Below, piece after piece: positions 32,315 through 45,404 of a DNA stretch of 64,000 nucleotides; positions within the stretch are counted from its first letter, which is position 1, and each line of letters starts with the position of its first letter. Origin of the DNA: Actinacidiphila yanglinensis (GTDB lineage Bacteria; Actinomycetota; Actinomycetes; Streptomycetales; Streptomycetaceae). The notes beneath the pieces are model-generated. The model did not search any database. It was not told the DNA's origin and worked only from the letters and a program-made list of their open reading frames with translations. The position numbers and the translations under genes were made by a program. The stretch spans positions 620,001 to 684,000 of the forward strand of contig NZ_FNVU01000002.1 of the NCBI RefSeq assembly GCF_900107965.1, read 5' to 3'.

Positions 32315-32346
32315 GCTTGTGTGGGGTGATCGCCGCGAGGTGAACG

Positions 32347-32376
32347 GAAGTTGCCCCTACGGGTGCTGTCGTTCAC
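32347..32376 (-). promoter_or_regulatory. Inverted motif upstream of pstC (copy B)
   Basis: On the minus strand GTGAACGAC, 11 bases, GGGCAACTTC; related to copy A at 31676-31694. Read on the plus strand it contains GTTCAC (32371-32376) facing GTGAAC (32340-32345). These GTTCAC half-sites resemble PhoP box units but are not in the 11-bp tandem register of a proper PHO box. It is the only candidate control element I can see for the operon. Confidence 0.4.
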
Positions 32377-32382
32377 ACACTG

Positions 32383-33441
32383 GTGCGGGCGCGGCCACTG
32401 CACCCCGTGATCGTGCGTTCGGTGAGCATACGAACACAGCCGCGACCGGCCGGGCCCGACCACGGCGCGGACCGGCGCCGCCGGCTGTACTCCGACTCCG
32501 CCCTGCCCGACCGGCTCTTCCACGCGGTGGCCCGCAGCGGCGGCGGCCTGGTGCTGGCCGTCATGCTGCTGGTCGGCGGGTTCCTGCTGTACCGGGCCTG
32601 GCAGGCGCTGCGCAAGGCCGGCCTCGGCTTCCTCACCACCGCCCAATGGGACCCGGACGCCGGCCACTTCGGGATCGCCGCGGTACTCACCGGCACCGTG
32701 CTGATCGCCACCGTCGCGGTGGTGATCTCGGTGCCGCTGGCCATCGGCACCGCGCTGTACATCGCGGAGTACGCCCCCGTCCGGCTGCGCCGCACCCTGG
32801 TGAGCGTGGTCGACCTGATGGCGGCGGTGCCCTCGGTGGTCTACGGGCTGTGGGGGCTGTTCTTCCTCCAGGGCAAGGTGATCGGCCTGGCCCGCTGGCT
32901 GTCCACCTACGGCGGCTGGTTCCCGCTGTTCACGGTGGACGGGGCCGACCCGCACGACCCGCTGGCCACCGCCACCGTCTACACCGCCTCCACCTTCGTG
33001 GCCGGCATCGTGGTCGCGATGATGGTCACCCCGATCATCTGCTCGATCATCCGGGAGGTCTTCTCCCAGGCGCCGGTCGGCGAGCGTGAGGGCGCGTACG
33101 CGCTGGGCGCGACCCGCTGGGGCATGATCCGCTCGGTGGTCCTGCCGTTCGCCACCGGCGGCATGATCGGCGGCACCATGCTCGGCCTCGGCCGCGCGCT
33201 GGGCGAGACGATCGGCGTCTACCTGGTGATCTCCCCGGTGTTCGCGATCCAGCCGCACATCCTGCAGACCGGCACCAGTTCGGTCTCGTCGCTGATCGCG
33301 CTGCGCTACGGCGAGGCCAGCCCGTTCGGCATGTCCGCGCTGATGGCAGCCGGACTCGCCCTGTTCCTGATGACGCTGGTGGTCAACTTCGCCGCGTCCT
33401 CGATCGTCGCCCGCAGCCGTTCCGGTGCCACCGCCGAGTAG
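32383..33441 (+). CDS. pstC: Phosphate-type ABC permease PstC
   Basis: 352 residues with six predicted TM helices. SVPLAIGTALYIAEYAPVRLRRTLV..DLMAAVPSVVYGLWGL and the EAA loop REGAYALGATRWGMIRSVVLPFA followed by GMLGLGRALGETIGV-like residues (TMLGLGRALGETIGVYLVI) are characteristic of PstC. The start is uncertain among GTG codons at 32383, 32407, 32413 and 32422. It opens a nine-gene block that ends with pstB. The order differs from the common pstSCAB, and two binding-protein-like genes plus surface proteins are inserted. Confidence 0.88.
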   Translation: MRARPLHPVIVRSVSIRTQPRPAGPDHGADRRRRLYSDSALPDRLFHAVARSGGGLVLAVMLLVGGFLLYRAWQALRKAGLGFLTTAQWDPDAGHFGIAAVLTGTVLIATVAVVISVPLAIGTALYIAEYAPVRLRRTLVSVVDLMAAVPSVVYGLWGLFFLQGKVIGLARWLSTYGGWFPLFTVDGADPHDPLATATVYTASTFVAGIVVAMMVTPIICSIIREVFSQAPVGEREGAYALGATRWGMIRSVVLPFATGGMIGGTMLGLGRALGETIGVYLVISPVFAIQPHILQTGTSSVSSLIALRYGEASPFGMSALMAAGLALFLMTLVVNFAASSIVARSRSGATAE

Positions 33442-33552: not shown

Positions 33553-35013
33553 ATGACCACGGATGTCACCAGCGCCGCCGGCGCGGCCGGTCCCGGCCCG
33601 CACGCCGCGCAGCCGCCGCGGCCGGGCGGGGCGGAAACGCCGCGGGATCCCGCGCCCCCACCGCCGGCCACCACGCTGCCGCGCACCGCCGGGACGACCG
33701 GCACCGCTCCCGAGCGGCGCCGCTCCACCGGCACCACGCGGCAGTCCGACGTGCTCGCCCTGGTCGGCGCGGCGGCCGCGGCCCTCTCCACCACCTGGCT
33801 GTTCTTCACCCGCCTCGCGCCCTTCAGCGGCGGCCTCGGCTTCGTCGTCTGCGCGTACCTGCTCTTCCTCGCGTTCTACGCGCTGCTGGTCTCCTTCGAC
33901 GAGGACGGCCCCGCGGTCCGCGACCGGATCGCCTCGGCGATCGTGCACAGCCTGGCGCTCCTGCTGCTGGTGGCCCTGACCTTCGTCCTCGTCTACACCC
34001 TGTGGTCCGGGCGCAAGGCGCTGCCGCACCTCAACTTCCTCACCCAGGACATGCGGAAGGCCGGACCGCTCGATCCGCTGACCGTCGGCGGCATCCGGCA
34101 CGCGATCATCGGCACGCTGATCCAGATCACCATCGGCCTGGTGCTCACCGTCCCGGCCGGCCTGCTGTGCGCGGTGTTCCTCAACGAGGTGCCCGGCCGC
34201 TACGCGCGTTTCGTGCGGACCGTGGTCGAGGCGATGACCGCGCTGCCGTCCATCGTCGCGGGCCTGTTCGTCTACGCGACCGCCATCCTCGCGGTCGGCC
34301 TGGACAAGTCCGGCCTCGCGGCGTCGCTGGCGATCTCGGTGATGATGCTGCCGATCATCATCCGGGCCTCGGACGTGGTGATCCGGCTGGTGCCCGGCAC
34401 CCTGCGGGAGGCGTCGTACGCGCTCGGTTCGCCGCGCTGGCGCACCGTGTGGCACGTGGTGCTGCCGACCGCCCGGTCCGGGCTGACCACCGCGGTGATC
34501 CTGGGCACCGCCCGCGGGGTGGGCGAGACCTCGCCGGTGCTGCTCACCGCGGGGTTCACCGCGGTCACCAACTACCAGCCGCTGCACAACCCGATGGTGT
34601 CGCTGCCGCTGGCCGCGTTCGAGTTCGTGCAGTCGCCGCAGCCCGCGATGATCGCGCGCGGCTTCGGCACCGCCTCGGTGCTGGTGGTGCTGGTGCTCGC
34701 GCTCTTCGTGGTCGCCCGCGTCATCGGCGGCCGGGGCCCCGGCGAGCTGACCCGGAGCGGCACGCACCGCGCGGTGCTCGCCTCCCGCCGGGACCAGCAG
34801 CGCTTCGCCCGGCGCGCCGCCGCGAGCACCGCGGCCACCGCCACGGGCAGCACCGCGAGCGCCGCCGCCGACACCGTCACGACCAGCAGCGCCGCCGCCG
34901 ACACCGTCACGACCGGCGGCATCGCTGCCGATGGCCCCGGCCGTACCGACACCGCCGAGCAGGACCACGCACACCCCGACCAGGGGCCCGCACAGGGAGT
35001 TGACGGATCGTGA
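33553..35013 (+). CDS. pstA: Phosphate-type ABC permease PstA with extended tails
   Basis: 486 residues against about 290 for typical PstA. A 65-residue Pro/Ala/Thr N-terminal extension and two additional TM segments (LALVGAAAAALSTTWLFF, FVVCAYLLFLAFYALLV) precede the core: IGTLIQITIGLVLTVPAGLLCAVFLNE, VVEAMTALPSIVAGLFVYA, the EAA loop REASYALGSPRWRTVWHVVLPTA and ARGVGETSPVLLTAGFT. The last 100 residues are hydrophilic and contain a duplicated 10-residue stretch (ASAAADTVTT). ATG 33553 follows GGAG. Its stop overlaps the next start, so pstS-like translation is coupled. Confidence 0.88.
   Translation: MTTDVTSAAGAAGPGPHAAQPPRPGGAETPRDPAPPPPATTLPRTAGTTGTAPERRRSTGTTRQSDVLALVGAAAAALSTTWLFFTRLAPFSGGLGFVVCAYLLFLAFYALLVSFDEDGPAVRDRIASAIVHSLALLLLVALTFVLVYTLWSGRKALPHLNFLTQDMRKAGPLDPLTVGGIRHAIIGTLIQITIGLVLTVPAGLLCAVFLNEVPGRYARFVRTVVEAMTALPSIVAGLFVYATAILAVGLDKSGLAASLAISVMMLPIIIRASDVVIRLVPGTLREASYALGSPRWRTVWHVVLPTARSGLTTAVILGTARGVGETSPVLLTAGFTAVTNYQPLHNPMVSLPLAAFEFVQSPQPAMIARGFGTASVLVVLVLALFVVARVIGGRGPGELTRSGTHRAVLASRRDQQRFARRAAASTAATATGSTASAAADTVTTSSAAADTVTTGGIAADGPGRTDTAEQDHAHPDQGPAQGVDGS
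34858..34914 (+). repeat. In-frame 27-bp duplication in pstA tail
   Basis: Two copies (34858-34884 and 34888-34914) of the unit encoding SAAADTVTT, 30-bp period, keeping the reading frame. Confidence 0.75.
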
Positions 35014-36719
35014 GAAGGATTCGGGCGGCAGCGGCAGCCCTCGGGCTGCTCATCTGCTCGCTGCTGGTACTCGGCCAGCAGGGGCCGAGCGCCTCCGCGG
35101 CCACCTACGCGCGGATCAGCGGCGCGGGCTCCACCTGGAGCCAGAACGCCATCGACCAGTGGCGGCGCAACGTCACCCAGTACGGCATGACGATCGACTA
35201 CGCCGGCACCGGCTCCTCCGACGGCCGCCAGCAGTTCCGCAACGGCACCGTCGACTTCGGGGTGTCCGAGATCCCGTACGGCATGACCGAGTTCGGTGTG
35301 CGCGAACCTCCGCCCACCCGCGGCTACGCCTACATGCCGATCGTGGCCGGCGGCACCGCGTTCATGTACAACCTGCAGATCGGCGGGAAGCGGGTCACCA
35401 ACCTGCGGCTGAACGGCGACACCGTCAGCAGGATCTTCACCGGCAAGATCACCAACTGGTCGGACAAGGCGATCGCCGCCGACAACCCGGGGCTGACGCT
35501 GCCGAACCGCAAGATCATCCCGGTGGTCCGCTCCGACGGCTCCGGCACCACCGCCCAGTTCTCGCTGTGGATGTCCAAGGAACACGGCTCGGTGTGGAAC
35601 GACTACTGCCGGCGCGTCGGCAAGCCGGTGCCCTGCGGCCTGACGTCGTACTTCCCGGTGGTCCCCGGTTCGGGCTTCATCTCCCAGTCGGGCTCGCTCG
35701 GGGTGTCCGGCTACACGCGGCAGAACTACGCCAACGGCGCCATCACCTACGTCGAGTACTCCTACGCGGTCACCACCGGCTTCCCGGTCGCGAAGATCGA
35801 GAACTCCGACGGCTACTACACCGAGCCCACCGCCTCCAACGTCGCGGTGGCGCTGACCCAGGCCCAGATCAACCAGAACAAGAGCTCGTCGCAGTACCTG
35901 ACGCAGATCCTCGACAACGTCTACCACTACAAGGACCCGCGCACGTATCCGCTGTCCAGCTACAGCTACATGATCCTGCCGACCAAGGTGGAGAAGGGCT
36001 TCACCACCGACAAGGGCAACACGCTCGGGGCGTTCGGCTACTACTTCCTCTGCGAGGGTCAACGCCAGGCCGAGCCACTGGGCTTCTCACCGCTGCCGAT
36101 CAACCTGGTGCAGGCGGGCTTCGACCAGCTCAAACGGATCCCCGGGGTGCAGGTCCAGAGCATCAACCTCAAGGGCTGCGACAACCCGACCTTCTCCACC
36201 AACGGCACCAACACGCTGGCGAAGAACGCGCCCTTCCCCAAGTCCTGCGACAAGGCGGGGCCCACGCAGTGCTCGGACGGCACCGGTGGCGCGAGCCATG
36301 TCAAGACCCCGGTGAAGTCCTCGGCCGGCGGCGGCACCGGCGGTTCCTCCGCCGGCACCGCGGGCTCCGGCAGCGGTACCACGGCAGGGAGTTCGGGCAC
36401 CGGCTCCGGGACCACCGCCGGTTCCGGCAGCACCTCGGGCGCCGGCTCCGGGACCACCACCGCGGGCGCCACCTCCGCCGGTACCTCCGGCGGAGTGGAC
36501 CCCGACACCGGCCTGTCCACCGGTGACGCGGGTGGCAGCGGCGACGGCGGCCAGGACATCGCGGCCTCCACCGTCTCCGTCGGCTCCGAGTCCTTCTGGG
36601 GCCTGCGCACCTGGCTGATGGGCCTGTCCGCGCTGCTGCTGCTCGCCGTCGTCGTCGCCCCGCCCACCATCGCCCGCCGGCTCACCACCAGGACAGGAAA
36701 GCGTCATGGCAGTGCGTAA
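35010..36719 (+). CDS. Membrane-anchored phosphate-binding protein (PstS-like)
   Basis: 569 residues. A Sec signal (AAAALGLLICSLLVLGQQGPSASA) comes first. The PstS-type domain (residues 32-400) has ISGAGSTW, TIDYAGTGSSDGRQQFRNGTVDFG, RIFTGKITNWSD and the phosphate-binding motif VVRSDGSGTTAQF. A Gly/Ser/Thr linker (about 415-520) leads to one C-terminal TM helix (FWGLRTWLMGLSALLLLAVVVA) and a basic tail. Classical PstS is a lipoprotein; here attachment is by a C-terminal anchor with a long flexible stalk. It overlaps pstA by 4 bp and the next gene by 14 bp, so all are one transcript. Phosphate is the likely ligand but is unproven. Confidence 0.82.
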   Translation: MRRIRAAAAALGLLICSLLVLGQQGPSASAATYARISGAGSTWSQNAIDQWRRNVTQYGMTIDYAGTGSSDGRQQFRNGTVDFGVSEIPYGMTEFGVREPPPTRGYAYMPIVAGGTAFMYNLQIGGKRVTNLRLNGDTVSRIFTGKITNWSDKAIAADNPGLTLPNRKIIPVVRSDGSGTTAQFSLWMSKEHGSVWNDYCRRVGKPVPCGLTSYFPVVPGSGFISQSGSLGVSGYTRQNYANGAITYVEYSYAVTTGFPVAKIENSDGYYTEPTASNVAVALTQAQINQNKSSSQYLTQILDNVYHYKDPRTYPLSSYSYMILPTKVEKGFTTDKGNTLGAFGYYFLCEGQRQAEPLGFSPLPINLVQAGFDQLKRIPGVQVQSINLKGCDNPTFSTNGTNTLAKNAPFPKSCDKAGPTQCSDGTGGASHVKTPVKSSAGGGTGGSSAGTAGSGSGTTAGSSGTGSGTTAGSGSTSGAGSGTTTAGATSAGTSGGVDPDTGLSTGDAGGSGDGGQDIAASTVSVGSESFWGLRTWLMGLSALLLLAVVVAPPTIARRLTTRTGKRHGSA

Positions 36720-39201
36720 CCACCCCCAAGAGGGCCGGGCGCAGTTGGTACGCCTGGGCGGCCTGCTGTCCGCACTGCTCGCGGCGGTCGGCCTGGTGCT
36801 GCTGCCGCTGCCCGCGGGCACCACCGCGGCGCACGCCGCCGACAGCAGCGGCTCGGCGGTCACCAGGTCCGGCACGAAGGGCACCTGGGACGACTTCTCC
36901 TCGCTCAAGGTGACCGTCGAGCAGACGAAGGGACTGCGCGACCAGGGCCTGAAGGTGTCCTGGTCCGGCGGCGCCCCGACCACGATGGCCAACGGCACCC
37001 AGTTCGGCTACGACTTCCTCCAGATCATGGAGTGCTGGGGGAACTCGCCGGACGGTCCCACCCGCGAGCAGTGCGAGATGGGGGCGCCGCCGGGCGGCAT
37101 CGCCCCCTCCCAGACGGCCCGGCGCATGGTGGGCTACCCCGCCACGACCGCGCTGTACGACCCGCAGGAGACCACGTACACCGGCGGCGGGCAGACGCTG
37201 CCCTTCCAGCCGGTCAAGGGCGCGGCCAGCACCGACACCAACACCTTCTTCACCGCACTGACCAGCAACGAGCAGGACTTCGCCCCCACCGCGGCCGACG
37301 GCACCGGCGAGGCCGTCATCGACCTGCTGTCCGCCGTCGACGCGGACTACCTCGGCTGCGGGGCGGTGGCCGAGGACGGCGCCGCCCCCGAGCCGTGCTG
37401 GCTGGTGGTGGTCCCGCGCGGCACCCACGAGCCCGACGGCACCATCCCCGACCTCGGCAACGGCGGGCTGTCCACCTCGCCGCTGTCCGCGACGAACTGG
37501 GCCCAGCGCATCGTCTTCCGGCTGGACTTCGCGCCGATCGGCGGCTACTGCACCATCGGCCAGAAGGAGCAGATGACCATCGGCTCCGAGATGGCCGAGG
37601 AGGCGATCACCTCCTGGCAGCCGACGCTGTGCACCGAGGACAGGATCACCTTCGGCTACGAGCGGGAGACCGACGACCTCGGGCGCAGCGCCGTCACCCG
37701 GCCCACCGACGGCTCACCGGGGCTGGCCTTCATGGAGGCACCGATCTCGCCGCCCCCGCAGGGGAAACCCGTCGTCTACGCGCCGGTGTCCATGTCCGGC
37801 CTGGTGATCAGCTACAACGTCGAGGTCGCGGCGTCGACGAAGATGGTGCCCAGGATCAGGCTCGACGCGCGGCTGGTGGCGAAGATGCTCACCGGCTCCT
37901 ACCAGTGGGACGTGCCCGGCACCGACCCGCCGCGCGGAAACCTGCCGAAGGAGAACGCCGAAGGGCTCTCCAGGGACCCCGAGTTCCTGAAACTCAATCC
38001 CGACCTCGGGAACTACGCAGGCTCCAGCGCGATCGAGGGCATCGCGATGCCGCAGGGATCGGGCGACTTCATCGCGGAACTGTGGCGATGGCTGCGCTCC
38101 GACCCGGACGCGAAGAGCTTCCTGGAGGGAAAGCCGGATCCGTGGGGCATGACCATCAACCCCTATTTCCTTTCCCAGTTGAAGCCGGCTGATTCCGCCA
38201 TCTCGGAATTCCCGAAACCCGATCCGACCACCTATCGGCCGTCGGCGGCCTATCCCAACCTGATCATCGACAGCACCGCGGCCAATCCGTACACCGCCTC
38301 GCTGCACGACGACGCGACGCGGGTGCTCACCGCGGCCCAGCCCGGCGCGACCGGTGTCGACCTCACCGCCCAGCCGCCGAAACTGCAGATCGGCCAGACG
38401 CTGCCCGGCCAGGCGTTCTCCTTCGGCGTGACCGACGCGGCCACCGCCGCCCGCTACCGGCTCGGCGTCGCGGAACTGCTCAACCCCGCCGGCCAGTGGG
38501 TCTCCCCGACCACCGACTCCATGACCAGGGCGGTCAACGGCTGGAAGGACGGCCCGGTCCCCGGGGTGCTCGACGAGGACCCGGGGCTGAGGACACCCGG
38601 CGCCTACCCGCTGACCACCGTCACCTACGCGACCGCCGCCCTCGGCCAGGACGCCACCGCGCGCAAGGACTACGCGGCCATGATCCGCTACGCGACCGGC
38701 CCGGGACAGCAGTCCGGTATCGGCCCCGGCCTGCTCCCACCCGGCTACGCGCCCCTCACCGCCCACCTGCGGGACCAGGCGGCAACCGCCGCGTCCCAGC
38801 TGGTCACCGGCGTGCTGCCGGCGTCCGGCGGTACGGCGGGCGGCTCGTCCGGGGGCGGCGGCTCGACGGCCTTCGGGGACTCCGGCGGCGGCTCGTCCGG
38901 CATCACCGGCGGGTCGGCGACCGGCGGCGCGAGCGCCGCCGGGGGAGCCTCGCCGTCGTCCTCCGCGTCGAAGGCGGCGCTGACCGGAGGGTCGAACGGC
39001 ACCTCGGGCAGCAAGCCCGCGGCCGACGCGCGCGGCACCACGCCCGGCGCCTTCCTCGGCGCGGTGCGCTGGGTGCTGCTCATCGTGCTGATCGCGGGCA
39101 TCGCCGGGTCGCTCGGCGGACCGCTGCTGATCCGCGCGGGCGGGATACGCGGCGCCGGCCGGTCACTGATCCCCCCGCGTTTCCGGCGGAGGACGGCATG
39201 A
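36706..39201 (+). CDS. Large anchored surface protein with PBP-like segment
   Basis: 831 residues. A signal peptide (GLLSALLAAVGLVLLPLPAGTTAAHA) leads into a large extracellular region with several Cys. Near residues 340-420 the stretch VVYAPVSMSGLVISYNVEVA..PRIRLDARLVAKMLTGSYQWD parallels the YN..LRL..VSRIFTGKITNW segment of the preceding PstS-like protein, so part of it is a diverged phosphate-binding-protein fold. A Gly/Ser/Ala-rich stalk (about 708-785) precedes a C-terminal TM helix (GAVRWVLLIVLIAGIAGSLGGPLLI) and basic tail. Length and architecture do not fit any standard Pst component. It may be a co-receptor or scaffold of the same transporter. Confidence 0.7.
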   Translation: MAVRNHPQEGRAQLVRLGGLLSALLAAVGLVLLPLPAGTTAAHAADSSGSAVTRSGTKGTWDDFSSLKVTVEQTKGLRDQGLKVSWSGGAPTTMANGTQFGYDFLQIMECWGNSPDGPTREQCEMGAPPGGIAPSQTARRMVGYPATTALYDPQETTYTGGGQTLPFQPVKGAASTDTNTFFTALTSNEQDFAPTAADGTGEAVIDLLSAVDADYLGCGAVAEDGAAPEPCWLVVVPRGTHEPDGTIPDLGNGGLSTSPLSATNWAQRIVFRLDFAPIGGYCTIGQKEQMTIGSEMAEEAITSWQPTLCTEDRITFGYERETDDLGRSAVTRPTDGSPGLAFMEAPISPPPQGKPVVYAPVSMSGLVISYNVEVAASTKMVPRIRLDARLVAKMLTGSYQWDVPGTDPPRGNLPKENAEGLSRDPEFLKLNPDLGNYAGSSAIEGIAMPQGSGDFIAELWRWLRSDPDAKSFLEGKPDPWGMTINPYFLSQLKPADSAISEFPKPDPTTYRPSAAYPNLIIDSTAANPYTASLHDDATRVLTAAQPGATGVDLTAQPPKLQIGQTLPGQAFSFGVTDAATAARYRLGVAELLNPAGQWVSPTTDSMTRAVNGWKDGPVPGVLDEDPGLRTPGAYPLTTVTYATAALGQDATARKDYAAMIRYATGPGQQSGIGPGLLPPGYAPLTAHLRDQAATAASQLVTGVLPASGGTAGGSSGGGGSTAFGDSGGGSSGITGGSATGGASAAGGASPSSSASKAALTGGSNGTSGSKPAADARGTTPGAFLGAVRWVLLIVLIAGIAGSLGGPLLIRAGGIRGAGRSLIPPRFRRRTA

Positions 39202-39444: not shown

Positions 39445-40548
39445 GTGAACGTGAAACTCGCCAAGCGCGCGGCTGTCGCCGCAGGTGTCGCCGCACTGAG
39501 CTTCGGGCTGGCCATGCCCGCCGCGCAGGCCGACCCGGGCAGTGACCCCGTCACCGGCAGCAACTTCCGCGAGCTGGTCGGTGTCGGCTCCGACACCACC
39601 CAGGACGTGATGAACGGTCTGGGCGCCGTGGTCCAGGACCCCGACGCCGACCCGGCGTCGCTGCTGATCGGCTCCTACGACGCGGTCGACCCCAGCACCG
39701 GTGCGGTGCACGGCACCATCACGACCCGGGCCGGCCACGCCGCCGTGCAGCGCCCGAACGGTTCGGCCGAGGGCGTCAACGCGCTGGCCGCCGACATCAA
39801 CTCCGGCGCCAACAACTTCGACTTCGCCCGCTCCTCCTCCAAGCCCACGCTGCCGGCCTCCTCCGGCATCAGCGGCACCTGGGTCCCCTTCGCCCTCGAC
39901 GCGGTCACGGTGGCGGTCTCCGGCACCAGCACCCTGCCGGCCAACTTCTCGCTCCAGGACCTCACCCGCGCCTACAACTGCCAGGACCCGGCGACCGGCA
40001 ACGCGCTGCCGTCCGGCCAGTTCCCGGTGATCGGCGGCGTGACCGTCCACCCGCTGGTGCCGCAGGCCGGCTCCGGCACCCGGAAGTTCTGGGCCTCCAC
40101 CCTCGGCTTCAACGCCACCACCCTGCCCTCCTGCGTCAAGGACACGGACAAGGACGGCGTCGCGGTCGAGGAGCACGACGGCGGCTCGCTGAAGCGCACC
40201 GTCGCCGCCAACGGCTCCGAGGACATCGCGCCGTTCTCCATCGCCCAGTACATCGCGCAGACCAACAGCGCGCAGACCGGGGTGCGCGACCGGCGCCACG
40301 GCGCGCAGCTGCGCTCCATCAACAACGCCGCCCCCATCATCAGCGGCGCGCTCAACGACCAGTTCCCGGTCCACCGCAACGTCTACAACGTCTTCCAGAC
40401 CTCCCGGCTGACCGAGCCCGACATCGCGCAGGCCTTCGTCGGCTCGACCTCGGACGTGTGCGCCAACTCCGACGTCATCAAGGAGTTCGGCTTCGGCACC
40501 ATCAGCGACTGCGGCGACGTCAGCCTGACCGGCGCGCTCCAGCTCTGA
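39445..40548 (+). CDS. Secreted substrate-binding-like protein
   Basis: 367 residues starting at GTG with GGAGGAAG 7 bases upstream. The Sec signal is AAVAAGVAALSFGLAMPAAQA. The mature part begins with VGVGSDTTQDVMNGLGAVVQ and contains INSGANNFDFARSSSKP, VPFALDAVTVAVS, FSLQDLTRAYNCQDP and PQAGSGTRKFWAS. The last matches the S-G-T region that binds oxyanions in PstS-like proteins. It is a third periplasmic-binding-type fold in the operon, with no TM anchor or lipobox. It could be a released binder that feeds the anchored ones. The ligand is not certain. Confidence 0.75.
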   Translation: MNVKLAKRAAVAAGVAALSFGLAMPAAQADPGSDPVTGSNFRELVGVGSDTTQDVMNGLGAVVQDPDADPASLLIGSYDAVDPSTGAVHGTITTRAGHAAVQRPNGSAEGVNALAADINSGANNFDFARSSSKPTLPASSGISGTWVPFALDAVTVAVSGTSTLPANFSLQDLTRAYNCQDPATGNALPSGQFPVIGGVTVHPLVPQAGSGTRKFWASTLGFNATTLPSCVKDTDKDGVAVEEHDGGSLKRTVAANGSEDIAPFSIAQYIAQTNSAQTGVRDRRHGAQLRSINNAAPIISGALNDQFPVHRNVYNVFQTSRLTEPDIAQAFVGSTSDVCANSDVIKEFGFGTISDCGDVSLTGALQL

Positions 40549-40699
40549 CACCACCTCAGTACCGCTGAGCACGCACCGACGGGCGGTCCGACCGCCGGGG
40601 CCGGGCACCTCCACGGAGGTGTCCGGCCGTACCCCCCGTGGTCCGGCCGCCGGGCGGCCGGACCCGATCGACCCTCCGAGCTCCCAGGAGACACCACCG

Positions 40700-41827
40700 A
40701 TGAACCGAAGACTGTACGGCGCGCTGGTCGGCGCGTTGACCTTGCTCATGGGCGCAGGTGCCGCGCTCGGCGCGACCGGCACCGCCAGTGCGCAGACCGC
40801 GACCCGCCACGACCCGGCGGGACCGAAGGTCACGCTCACCGCCCGCAGCGACAGCCTCACCGACAGCTCGCCGTTCAGCCTCGTCTCGGTCGCCCGTGCC
40901 TGCCCGGCCGGCTACCAGGACAACCTCGGCGTGTACCTCGTCGTGCCCGACGGCCGCGAGTCCGCGCTGGCCCTCAACCTCACCGACGGCGCCCCCTACA
41001 GCGCGGACACCGTCACCACGCGGCCGCCCGCCCAGCCGGCAACCGGCGTCCTGGTGCGGTCGCTCGCGTCCGCCTTCCAGATCGTGCACGTGCCGGTCGC
41101 CGACGGGGTGTACCCGATCCACGTCGTCTGCGGCAACGCCGACCACGCCGACTTCCCGGACCGGCCGACGGCCACCGGCTTCGTCCAGGTCAGCGGGAGC
41201 ACCTTCACCGTCGCCGACCTGCCCGCCCCGGTCGAGACCACGCTGCGGCTGTCCGCCGACCCGGCCACCCACGTGCAGGCCGGCAACACCTTCACGCTGA
41301 CCGCCAGGGTCAGCGCGGCGGCGAGCGGCACGGTCCGCTTCACCACCGACAACACCAACCCGATCGGCAGCCCCGTCCCGGTGGTGAACGGCACGGCGCA
41401 GGTCACCGCGCCGGCCAACGCCAACCCGGGCGTGCGCCGCTACGTCGCCACCTTCGTGCCGTCCGACCCGATCGGCTACGCGCAGGACGTGGCGGTCTTC
41501 TCGTACGCGTTCACCGCGGCGCCGGGCATCCAGGTCACCGACGCGGCCGGCAACGCGCTCGGGGACACCCCGCGGCTGACGCCCGGTCAGCACGTCGAGG
41601 TCTCCGCGCAGGGCTTCCTGCCCGCTTCCGAGGAAGAGGTCACGGCCTCCGTCAGCGGCGCGCTCGGCTTCTTCCCCGCGGTCACCACCGACGCCGCCGG
41701 CGCGGTGACCGGCTACGACCTCCACGTGCCGTACGTGATCGCCGACGGCACCCACACGCTGACCCTCAGGGGTCGGACCAGCCATGTCTCGGTCACCTTC
41801 ACCTTCACCACGAAGTGGCCGTCATGA
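40700..41827 (+). CDS. Secreted Ig-like repeat protein, paralogue 1
   Basis: 375 residues. A signal peptide (YGALVGALTLLMGAGAALGATGTASA) is followed by three beta-sandwich regions: an N-terminal domain with Cys pair (ARACPAGYQDNLGVYLVVPDG..HVVCGNAD), an Ig_3-like bacterial domain (TTLRLSADPATHVQAGNTFT..LTARVSAAASGTVRFTTD) and a C-terminal domain (VEVSAQGFLPASEEEVTASV..HTLTLRGRTSHVSVTFTF). There is no sorting signal or TM, so it is secreted or held by partners. The same layout, including HVSVTFTF / HIAVDFPF ends, recurs in the next gene; the two come from a tandem duplication. It probably forms a surface structure with the next protein. Confidence 0.75.
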   Translation: MNRRLYGALVGALTLLMGAGAALGATGTASAQTATRHDPAGPKVTLTARSDSLTDSSPFSLVSVARACPAGYQDNLGVYLVVPDGRESALALNLTDGAPYSADTVTTRPPAQPATGVLVRSLASAFQIVHVPVADGVYPIHVVCGNADHADFPDRPTATGFVQVSGSTFTVADLPAPVETTLRLSADPATHVQAGNTFTLTARVSAAASGTVRFTTDNTNPIGSPVPVVNGTAQVTAPANANPGVRRYVATFVPSDPIGYAQDVAVFSYAFTAAPGIQVTDAAGNALGDTPRLTPGQHVEVSAQGFLPASEEEVTASVSGALGFFPAVTTDAAGAVTGYDLHVPYVIADGTHTLTLRGRTSHVSVTFTFTTKWPS

Positions 41828-41936
41828 CGGGCTGACCAGCACCATCGCGCCACCGGCCGGGCACCCACAGGTGCCCGGCTGCCGCCGTGAGGACGGCACC
41901 GCACCACCGACCGCATCCCCGAGGGGACGAGGAGAG

Positions 41937-43406
41937 ATGAAACGAAGAATGCGCGCCGCACTGCTGAGCGTGCCGGCGCTGATCCTGGGCACCGGTGCAC
42001 TGGTGTTCACCACATCGGGGACCGCGCGAGCGGAGATCGACGGCACCGTGACCCTCACGCCGGCGAGCGGCACCGTCACCGACAAGCCCTTCGTCACCGG
42101 GCTGTCGCTGTCGGCGGGGTGCCCGGCGCCCTACCAGGACGGGCTGCGGGTCTCGCTGGTCGCGACGGACGGCACGTCGAAGATCCTGCTGCTCGTCCGC
42201 GACGGCGCCCCGTACACCTCCGTCCCGGCCGAGGTGGCGCTGCCGGCCACCGCGCCGAGCGGCGAGCTCTACAACTCCATCACCACCGCGCTGCGGACCG
42301 TCGCCGACGGCACCTACCCGCTCACCGTCGAGTGCGGCACCACCACACCGGCCACCGACCAGGCCCTGCGGACGTACACCACGTCCCTCGAGATCACCGG
42401 GCAGAACTGGGCGATCAAGCAGGCCGCGCCGGCCACGCAGACCAGCGTCACCCTCACCACCGATCCGGTGGGCCACGCGGTGGTCAACAACACGGTCACC
42501 CTCACCGCGAAGGTCCAGCCGGCCGACGCGGCGGGGAAGGTGCGGTTCCTGCGGGACGGCACCTCGCAGATCGCCGAGGCCACCGTGACCAACGGCACGG
42601 CGACCGCCCAACTCCCGGCGGTGGCCAACCCGCTGGTGGTACCGCTCGGGGCGACCTTCGTCCCGGACGACAGCACCAAGTACACCCAGAGCTCCACGAC
42701 GGCGAGCTACTCGATCGTCGACGAGCCGTCCCTCACGGCGCTGGACGACACCGGCAACGCCCTGAGCGACACGCCGAACCTGGCGGGCGGCCAGAAGCTC
42801 TCGCTGACGGCGGCGGGCTTCCTCCCGGCGGTCTCCGGCAGCACCAGCGAGACGGTGGACCTCACCCTGGACGGCGCCGCGGCGACACCCTCCACCGCGA
42901 CCGCCGACAGCGCCGGGGCGGTCGACAACCTCGCGTACACGCTGCCCGGTTCGATCGCGGACGGCAGCCACAAGCTGACCCTCACCGGCCACACCAGCCA
43001 CATCGCGGTGGACTTCCCGTTCACCACCGGCGCCGCGGCCGGGAGCACCGACGGCACGACGTCGGGCGACACCGGGGACGACTCGGGCGCCACCGCCGGC
43101 GACACCGCGGGCGACTCGGGGACCACCGCCGGTGACACCGCCGGCGACTCGGGCACCACCTCGGGCGACACCGGCACGACCGGGACCACCGGGACCACCG
43201 GGTCGGCGGGCGAGGACGTATCCGGCGGCAGCACCGGCACCGGCGGGTCGTCCGGCGGCGGCGGATCGCTCGCGGCCACCGGAGCGGGCGGCGTCCTCCC
43301 GCTGACCGGGCTCGCCCTGGTGCTCGCCGCGGGCGGCGGCTACGCCGTCCACCGGGTGCGCCGGGACGGCAAGTTGCTCAGTTTCGGCCCGCACCCGAAG
43401 GACTGA
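41937..43406 (+). CDS. Cell-wall-sorted Ig-like protein with LAATG signal, paralogue 2
   Basis: 489 residues with GAGGAG just before the ATG. After the signal peptide the N-terminal Cys-pair domain (SAGCPAPYQDGLRVSLVATD), the Ig-like domain (VTLTTDPVGHAVVNNTVTLT..AKVQPADAAGKVRFL) and the SQGFLP-like C-terminal domain match paralogue 1. A repetitive Asp/Gly/Ser/Thr stalk (about 365-440, units of SGTTAGDTAGD) then leads to LAATG (445-449), a hydrophobic helix (VLPLTGLALVLAAGGGYAV) and RRDGK. LAxTG is the class E sortase motif of actinomycetes, so this protein should be linked to peptidoglycan. The next gene encodes a sortase-fold protein. Confidence 0.82.
   Translation: MKRRMRAALLSVPALILGTGALVFTTSGTARAEIDGTVTLTPASGTVTDKPFVTGLSLSAGCPAPYQDGLRVSLVATDGTSKILLLVRDGAPYTSVPAEVALPATAPSGELYNSITTALRTVADGTYPLTVECGTTTPATDQALRTYTTSLEITGQNWAIKQAAPATQTSVTLTTDPVGHAVVNNTVTLTAKVQPADAAGKVRFLRDGTSQIAEATVTNGTATAQLPAVANPLVVPLGATFVPDDSTKYTQSSTTASYSIVDEPSLTALDDTGNALSDTPNLAGGQKLSLTAAGFLPAVSGSTSETVDLTLDGAAATPSTATADSAGAVDNLAYTLPGSIADGSHKLTLTGHTSHIAVDFPFTTGAAAGSTDGTTSGDTGDDSGATAGDTAGDSGTTAGDTAGDSGTTSGDTGTTGTTGTTGSAGEDVSGGSTGTGGSSGGGGSLAATGAGGVLPLTGLALVLAAGGGYAVHRVRRDGKLLSFGPHPKD
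43063..43200 (+). repeat. Imperfect tandem repeats encoding Asp/Gly/Ser/Thr stalk
   Basis: About four in-frame units near 33 bp (SGTTAGDTAGD and variants) followed by short GTT repeats. They make a flexible wall-spanning stalk. Confidence 0.7.
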
Positions 43407-43527: not shown

Positions 43528-44472
43528 GTGGCCGTCATCTCACCGCCGCAGCCGGAGGCCGGGCCGCCGCCTTCGCACCCGTCCTCGCCGCAGGGGTCGC
43601 AGCCGGCGGTGCCCGCGCAGGAGCGCAAAGGCCCCGACCCGCGGTTCACCGTCCCGGGTGCGGCACTCACCCTCCTGGCCGCGCTGCTGCTCGGCTTCGC
43701 CGCGCATCTCACCGTGCTCGGCCACATCGAGCACGCCCGCGCCCAGCAGACCGGATACGACCGGCTGCGCGACGAACTCGCCCTCGGCACCGCTCCGGTG
43801 GGCCCCCGCGACCAGCAGGGCAGGCCCGTCCCGAACGGTGCCCCGGTGGCGGTGCTGCACATCCCCGCGATCGGTCTGCGCGAGGTGGTGTTCCAGGGCA
43901 CCAGCTCGGAGGTGCTGATGTCCGGTCCCGGCCACCTGCGGAACACCCCGCTGCCCGGCCAGCCCGGCACCAGCACGATCCTCGGCCGGCAGTGGGGGTA
44001 CGGCAGCCCGTTCAACCACCTCGACCAGCTGCGCGCCGGGGACCCCATCACCGTCACCACCGGCCAGGGCCAGCAGCACTACACCGTCACCGGCACCCGC
44101 CGGGCCGGCGACCAGGACCCCGTGGCGCTGACCGCAGGGCAGGGCCGGCTGACCCTGGTGACCGCGACCGGCGGCTACTACACCCCGCACGGCGTGCTGC
44201 GGGTCGACGCGCGGCTCGTCGGCCAGGCGCAGCCCGCGCCGGCGGCCGGCGGCGCCGTCCCGGCGGCCGAACTGCCGCTGGCGGGCGACCAGTCGGCATG
44301 GCTGCCGGTGCTGCTGTGGCTCCAGGCGCTGCTGGTGGCCACGGTCGCCGTCAGCTGGGCGTACCGCCGCTGGGGCCGCTGGCAGACCTGGATCGCTGGA
44401 CTGCCGGTGCTCACCGCGCTGGTGATCGCCCTGTCCGGAGCGGCCACGGCGCTGCTGCCCAACCTGATGTGA
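43528..44472 (+). CDS. Sortase-fold protein lacking catalytic His and Cys
   Basis: 314 residues from GTG 43528 (AAGGAG 7 bases upstream). One N-terminal TM (about 43-62) precedes a sortase-like domain (108-232): [42 protein letters not shown] and [32 protein letters not shown] align well with class E/F sortases. The catalytic His position (usually GHR) reads LGRQ (R154), and the TLxTC cysteine position reads TLVTATGG (A213). An Arg remains at 225. Two more TM segments close the protein (258-278, 289-310). With both residues lost it cannot act as a transpeptidase; it more probably binds the neighbouring LAATG protein or anchors the complex. Similar Cys-less sortase homologues may exist in other actinomycetes. 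Confidence 0.72.
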
Positions 44473-44510: not shown

Positions 44511-45404
44511 ATGCCAGCCACCGACAAGACCGTGGAACTGCCGCCCGTGCCCGTGCGGCCGTCCGCTCCCGGTCCGTCCGCAGCCCCCGGTCCGTCCGCG
44601 GTCCCCGGCTCGTCCGCCCCCGGCGCGCACCCGGCCACCCTGGACGCCCGCGAGGTCTCCGCCTGGTTCGGCGACCACAAGGTCCTGGACCGCGTCTCGC
44701 TCACCATGCCCGCGCGGCACGTCACCGCCCTGATCGGCCCGTCCGGCTGCGGCAAGTCCACCTTCCTGCGCATCCTCAACCGGATGCACGAACTCGTCGG
44801 CAGCGCCTCGCTCGCGGGTCAGGTGCTGCTGGACGGCGAGGACATCTACGACCGCGGCCGCCGCATCACCCATGCCCGACGCGAGATCGGCATGGTCTTC
44901 CAGAAGCCCAACCCCTTCCCGGCGATGTCGATCTACGACAACGTGCTCGCCGGGCTGAAGATGAACGGCGTCAAGGCCACCCGCGACGAGCGCGACGGCC
45001 TGGTCGAGGAGTGCCTGAGCAAGGCGGGCCTGTGGCGGGAGGTCGCCGACCGGCTGCGGCAGCCGGGCGGGGCGCTGTCCGGCGGGCAGCAGCAACGACT
45101 CTGCATCGCCCGCTCGCTGGCCGTCCGGCCCCGGGTACTGCTGATGGACGAGCCCTGCTCCGCGCTCGACCCCACCTCGACCCGGCGGATCGAGCAGACC
45201 ATCGGGGAGCTGTCCGCCGAGGTCACCATCGTCATCGTCACCCACAACATGCAGCAGGCCGCGCGGGTCTCCGACCAGTGCGCCTTCTTCCTCGCCGAGC
45301 AGGGCACCCCCGGGGTCATCGTCGAACACGGCTCCACCGAGGCGATGTTCGACCACCCCCAGGACCCCCGCACCACCGACTACGTCCAGGGCCGGTTCGG
45401 CTGA
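44511..45404 (+). CDS. pstB: Phosphate ABC transporter ATP-binding protein PstB
   Basis: 297 residues. A 43-residue Pro/Ala/Ser extension precedes the PstB domain: [21 protein letters not shown], Walker [10 protein letters not shown] (76-84), ILNRMHELV, the Q-loop [18 protein letters not shown], signature [15 protein letters not shown], Walker [14 protein letters not shown] and switch [20 protein letters not shown] and DEPCSALDP are specific for PstB. It should energise the PstC/PstA pair encoded 9-12 kb upstream in the same block; no phoU is present. A hairpin 9 bp after the stop ends the transcript. Confidence 0.93.

Follow-up and report, generated by a model that had tools for sequence, protein, structure and literature searches.

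Sortases are known as enzymes, and the live group nearest in our trees to the protein considered here is formed by class E-type sortases. The class E enzymes of S. coelicolor (SrtE1, 5cuw) and S. avermitilis (5go5) have solved structures, and the class is marked by a His-Cys-Arg triad. In SrtE1, Tyr229 in the beta3/beta4 loop is the proposed reader of the LAXTG sorting signal (PMC5148588, in extract). A second described system bears on the locus, the PstSCAB importer, whose operon encodes the permeases PstC and PstA, the ATPase PstB and a PstS protein with a phosphate-binding loop. The PHO boxes that mark PhoP-type pst operons are pairs of 11-base direct repeats (PMC7866108, in extract).

We analysed a window of 64,000 nucleotides from Actinacidiphila yanglinensis (contig NZ_FNVU01000002.1, positions 620,001 to 684,000 of the forward strand) that holds a gene for a protein of sortase fold. 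The preliminary description dealt with this protein and an adjacent one, and missed that the gene is part of a Pst-type ABC transporter operon in the order pstC, pstA, S1, S2, S3, Ig1, Ig2, pseudosortase, pstB (Table 1). Its observations are partly confirmed and its interpretation is partly supported by what follows.

Table 1. Features of the Pst-type operon, in window coordinates.
Feature	Positions	Strand	Remarks
Candidate promoter GGAAGTTGCC...CGTTCA	32346..32375	+	before pstC; ECF-sigma-like
pstC	32383..33441	+	permease; TIGR02138 255.9 bits, cut-off 196.45
pstA	33553..35013	+	permease; TIGR00974 213.4 bits, cut-off 193.45
S1	35010..36719	+	PstS-like binding protein; C-terminal hydrophobic anchor; phosphate loop kept, Glu at Asp56 position
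S2	36706..39201	+	PstS-fold protein without phosphate loop; N-terminal region, PstS fold at residues 286-703, C-terminal helix
S3	39445..40548	+	small secreted-type protein with PstS-like GSGT motif; putative binding protein
Ig1	40619..41827	+	secreted-type protein, putatively Ig-like
Ig2	41937..43406	+	Ig-like; carries an LAATG sorting signal, a TM segment and a basic tail; directly upstream of pseudosortase
Pseudosortase gene	43528..44472	+	one TM helix at the N terminus, then the dead sortase domain (~103-235) and a C-terminal TM hairpin whose loop reads WGRWQTWI
pstB	44511..45404	+	ATPase; TIGR00972 338.5 bits, just under cut-off 343.2

The reading frame opens with a GTG codon, six bases 3' of the end of an AAGGAG motif; orthologue start codons were picked as those nearest to the window's start and so give no independent proof of this GTG. 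The product passes the cut-offs of Pfam Sortase (67.1 against 26.6 bits) and TIGR01076 (45.6 against 39.35 bits), so that annotation will probably label it an active sortase, and falls far short of the class E model NF033747 (79.2 against 160 bits). An AlphaFold2 model built with 37 aligned sequences (mean pLDDT 87.3) consists of a long N-terminal helix (38-86), a beta domain (106-231) and, as had been described, two additional C-terminal helices (255-282 and 284-307). Among the structural matches listed, the best are solved sortases (4d70, Z 18.9, rmsd 2.9 over 153; SrtE1, 5cuw, Z 15.7, rmsd 2.0 over 129 residues). The beta-barrel fold, supported by Pfam, model and structure matches alike, is common to the pseudosortase and the class E sortases of both Streptomyces structures. 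The pseudosortase has a shorter connection between strands 6 and 7, which spans 192 to 206 in the model and is a 26-residue loop in SrtE1 (PMC5148588, in extract).

From the helices and the distribution of charges we infer a topology with the N-terminal end inside, the domain outside, the WGRWQTWI loop inside and the C-terminal end outside. The hairpin is well conserved at several residues: W288 is kept in 95, P311 in 97 and N312 in 94 of 97 orthologues. The loop motif is invariant in one set of 37 sequences; among the 97, each of its positions other than W288 is conserved in 62 to 88.

The preliminary description had read the catalytic His as replaced by Arg and the catalytic Cys by Ala. Both substitutions are borne out by an hhalign comparison with 16 live class E-type sortases, class E type being our own label (probability 99.5, E 2.7e-23), which places R154 at the His, A213 at the Cys and V223 at the Arg. 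They also hold among the 97 distinct orthologues, a set that excludes identical rows, the window copies and the live sortases of the same genome: the His site is Arg in 94 and Lys in 3, and the Cys site is Ala in 82, Ser in 9, Thr in 3 and Gly in 3, never Cys. The further claim that a late Arg was retained does not survive. The residue in question, R225, lies two positions on from the expected one and is Arg in 68/97 orthologues; the catalytic column is V223 (Arg in 0/97) or, in an ungapped alternative, G222 (Arg in 1/97), and we rejected R225 as a retained catalytic Arg. The window protein therefore lacks all three members of the triad. Judged by its sequence, it is a sortase-fold pseudoenzyme, from which no transpeptidation is expected.

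In a tree of 59 rows, 35 dead proteins form one side of a single branch (support 99/93) beside the class E-type sortases. A smaller tree search returned this branch with 91 by SH-aLRT, and leaving out the active-site columns gave 96/65, a bootstrap value that is not fully settled. Of 296 genomes sampled across the class, 41 were matched at E 1e-18 or better. One of these matches (G073) was false, consisting of two live sortases, and was removed from the profile; the residue-by-residue check covered part of the other 40 genomes. A search of plasmids returned no match. Among the papers listed in searches of the open-access literature, none dealt with a pseudosortase or described a sortase encoded within a Pst operon. 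One orthologue (L019, G005:C2:5616861-5617782) is broken into two matches that overlap but lie in different frames, owing to a frameshift or a sequencing error.

The operon shares with PstSCAB importers its permeases, both over their NCBIfam cut-offs, and PstB and S1, both just under theirs (S1 202.3 against 205 bits). The phosphate loop is present in S1, and in its homologues reads RSDGSGTT or RSDGSGTS in 33/52, with mostly close variants in the rest. At the position that we take to correspond to Asp56 of E. coli PstS, 43 of the 49 homologues covered have Glu, four Asp and two Ser, and from the sequence this Glu may alter the ligand of S1. Beyond the PstSCAB set, the window operon encodes two further PstS-type or PstS-like proteins, the Ig-like proteins and the pseudosortase. 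Residues 286-703 of S2 superimpose on 4lvq (Z 31.4, rmsd 2.3 over 304), and the RSDGSGT loop is absent from the aligned block in 26/26 sequences, so S2 is a pseudo-PstS that shares its operon with a pseudosortase. S3 gave no match in a family search and its role as a binding protein is accordingly putative; the Ig-like label of Ig1 is likewise provisional, because a Pfam scan found nothing over a cut-off.

This context is constant. In all 62 flanked loci examined (L038-L079, L088, L108-L126), several of them short contigs on which only pstB is visible, Pst-type genes lie near the pseudosortase gene, and in 61 of them on the same strand. The exception is L126, where pstC, pstA, pstB and S1 run on the opposite strand and S2 is matched only weakly, on the strand of the pseudosortase. 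In 51/62 loci pstB follows within 700 bases downstream. Across the 296 class genomes, profiles of S2 and the pseudosortase, searched at different limits (E 1e-10 and 1e-18, respectively) under the same genome handles as far as listed and with a part of the non-matching genomes listed, matched together in 37, with the pseudosortase alone in three (G078, G123, G200) and S2 alone in three (G130, G132, G292). The relevant contigs of these three S2-only genomes stop short of the expected position of the pseudosortase gene or inside it; G292 has a match to the start of the pseudosortase right at the contig end. The Fisher value of this co-occurrence, 5e-39, was computed with G073 still included, that is, with four genomes having the dead sortase only. 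The window's own genome also carries an ordinary pst operon elsewhere (L150), with no sortase match in 13 kb.

The two operons also differ in their upstream regions. The candidate promoter, which we take to resemble those of ECF sigma factors, matches its pattern once in the window, against 0.01 matches expected. Among 18 Streptomycetaceae sequences, the window included, 17 have the element or a variant of it before pstC (L066 lacks it), the first half being exact in 9 and the second in 15; it was found in none of seven sequences from outside the family. In the window only 8 bases separate its end from the annotated start of pstC, a gene that may therefore really begin further downstream. The only other exact match in the genome is inside an open reading frame, and no regulon was thus found. 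A PHO box, by contrast, reaches at best 11/14 positions in the 400 bases before the window's pstC, as against 14/14 before the genome's ordinary pst operon, and PHO-box control of the window operon is not supported; a first pattern search had given 10 matches against 4.8 expected, no clear signal. PHO boxes do occur in other loci, with a perfect tandem box (14/14) in Galbitalea L073, ahead of pstC and within 400 bases before position 631, and 12/14 in L071. In this the Galbitalea copy departs from those of Streptomycetaceae.

We think it rather probable that the pseudosortase is a non-catalytic accessory membrane subunit, serving as a scaffold or docking site, of a second, divergent, wall-linked Pst-type ABC importer. 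This reading rests on the loss of the triad in 97/97 orthologues, the single dead clade, the constant Pst context and the co-occurrence with S2, together with the conserved hairpin residues, the retention of the protein in 3/37 genomes without another PF04203 match, and the lack of a sortase match in 13 kb at the ordinary pst operon that the window's genome also has. In such an arrangement the N-terminal helix and the C-terminal hairpin would place the protein beside PstC and PstA, and the predicted cytoplasmic WGRWQTWI loop would touch PstB or the permeases. Outside, the old peptide groove would present a putative cluster of arginines (R138, R154, R191, often also R137 and R225), which could dock the extra binding proteins or wall-attached Ig proteins and keep them at the transport port. 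Complex formation and transport by the Pst-like system are presumed here, and a shared operon is no proof of a complex. The lesser conservation of the loop motif among the 97 orthologues also counts against a subunit, and the Glu at the Asp56 position of S1 leaves phosphate as a putative substrate.

If a clade of dead sortases is indeed kept in many Actinomycetota families next to the same transporter, this would show that the sortase fold can act structurally or as a receptor in an import system. The locus also draws attention to a Pst-like system that includes a pseudo-PstS. A bolder form of this proposal, which we put forward tentatively and regard as doubtful, is that a sortase was captured by the ABC transporter. 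Its dead site would now be an Arg-lined docking or anion-binding pocket. Together with the pseudo-PstS and the wall-attached Ig proteins, the former enzyme would be indispensable to a Pst-type machine spanning the wall, through which phosphate groups might be taken from the cell wall or moved across it.

The first of the competing explanations, which we judge unlikely, stays closest to the interpretation first offered for the gene, that a non-catalytic sortase might hold or gate sorted proteins: the dead sortase would bind the LAXTG tail of Ig2 uncut and hold it at the membrane or hand it to a live SrtE. The substrate-like neighbour is real. Ig2, whose ATG at 41937 is our reading of an open reading frame listed from 41784 (searches used 41931-43403), carries the LAATG signal that had been reported, together with a transmembrane segment and a basic tail, and a gene of this kind lies no more than 6 kb upstream in 29/29 Streptomycetaceae loci (22 LAXTG, 7 MAXTG). 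This could mean direct contact in that family, and is a point against the subunit reading, as is the presence of further PF04203 matches in 34/37 genomes; the window's own genome has six, two of them neighbouring on contig C20. Elsewhere, however, LAXTG is present in only 2 of 32 loci, with LPXTG-like signals (VPVTG, IPRTG) in two more. The equivalent of Tyr229, which falls at position 137, is Arg in 69, Leu in 14, Gln in 7, Val in 4, Ser in 2 and Glu in 1 of the 97 orthologues and never Tyr, and the protein has lost an Arg that in SrtE1 possibly touches the backbone of the peptide (PMC5148588, in extract). In three of the 37 genomes (Galbitalea G063, G327 and the MAG G065, with completeness known for G327 only, at 95%) the pseudosortase is the sole PF04203 match. 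Because LAXTG is rare elsewhere, the Tyr is absent and these three genomes lack another sortase match, holding sorted proteins is unlikely to be the core role.

Domains of wall-type proteins also occur in further loci. A domain scan of the genes in six other loci found Big_3_5 Ig proteins over the cut-off in L073, L108 and L112, and the wall-binding domain WxLIP_PGBD (PF06030) over the cut-off in L109 and under it in L072 and L116; in the latter three loci it sits between S3 and the pseudosortase, and in a Pfam scan it is absent from the window's own Ig1 and Ig2. Given the rarity of LAXTG outside Streptomycetaceae and the recurrence of Ig and WxLIP_PGBD domains, wall-type partners are a recurrent feature, with varying means of attachment, around a constant pseudosortase.

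Slightly less probable still is that the protein is an anion receptor, in which a putative pocket lined with Arg would bind phosphate, polyphosphate or teichoic acid, either to feed the transporter or to sense its ligand. The basic residue at the His site in 97/97 orthologues, the Arg residues kept in the old peptide groove (R138 in 92/97, R191 in 94/97) and the Pst operon context all fit such a role. The same arginines could, however, equally bind carboxylates of partner proteins, and a PstS-type site is already provided by S1.

That the protein is still an active enzyme with relocated residues is very improbable. Some pseudoenzymes may have migrated residues (PMC10211241, in extract), yet 94/97 orthologues have no cysteine at all in the domain and position 214 varies, and a moved catalytic Cys was rejected. 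The three exceptions are the Microbacteriaceae orthologues L077, L078 and L079, each with a pair of cysteines, in the columns of positions 144 and 183, that perhaps forms a disulfide. Decay into a pseudogene, for which the lost catalytic residues might speak, can be dismissed in view of the open reading frame, the synteny and the strongly conserved positions across many families.

The pseudosortase thus differs from class E enzymes in the missing triad and Tyr229 equivalent, in its extra C-terminal hairpin and in its location in a Pst operon. In a phylum-wide sample 11 of 296 genomes were matched at 1e-22, and the matches include live hairpin sortases (G609, G551 and one of two in G373). Three proteins from genomes outside the class (L163, L165 and L166) have a similar C-terminal hairpin and chains ending LLPANY, LLPAGY and ALPGNY, but they keep His, Cys and Arg and group with the live sortases, and a search of about 14.8 kb around each for the window's Pst genes gave no match. 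Orthologues retaining both His and Cys, which would have spoken against a pseudoenzyme, are absent from the 97; the three hairpin proteins, as relatives with an intact triad, qualify this result. Another protein (L164, L171:7959-8936) has Arg for His and Ser for Cys, retains the Arg and lies beside pstC, pstA and pstB. With all columns it is the first branch of the dead clade (95/84); once the active-site columns are dropped it falls outside (within it in 5% of bootstrap trees). L164 may represent an early step or an independent loss, and is a possible intermediate.
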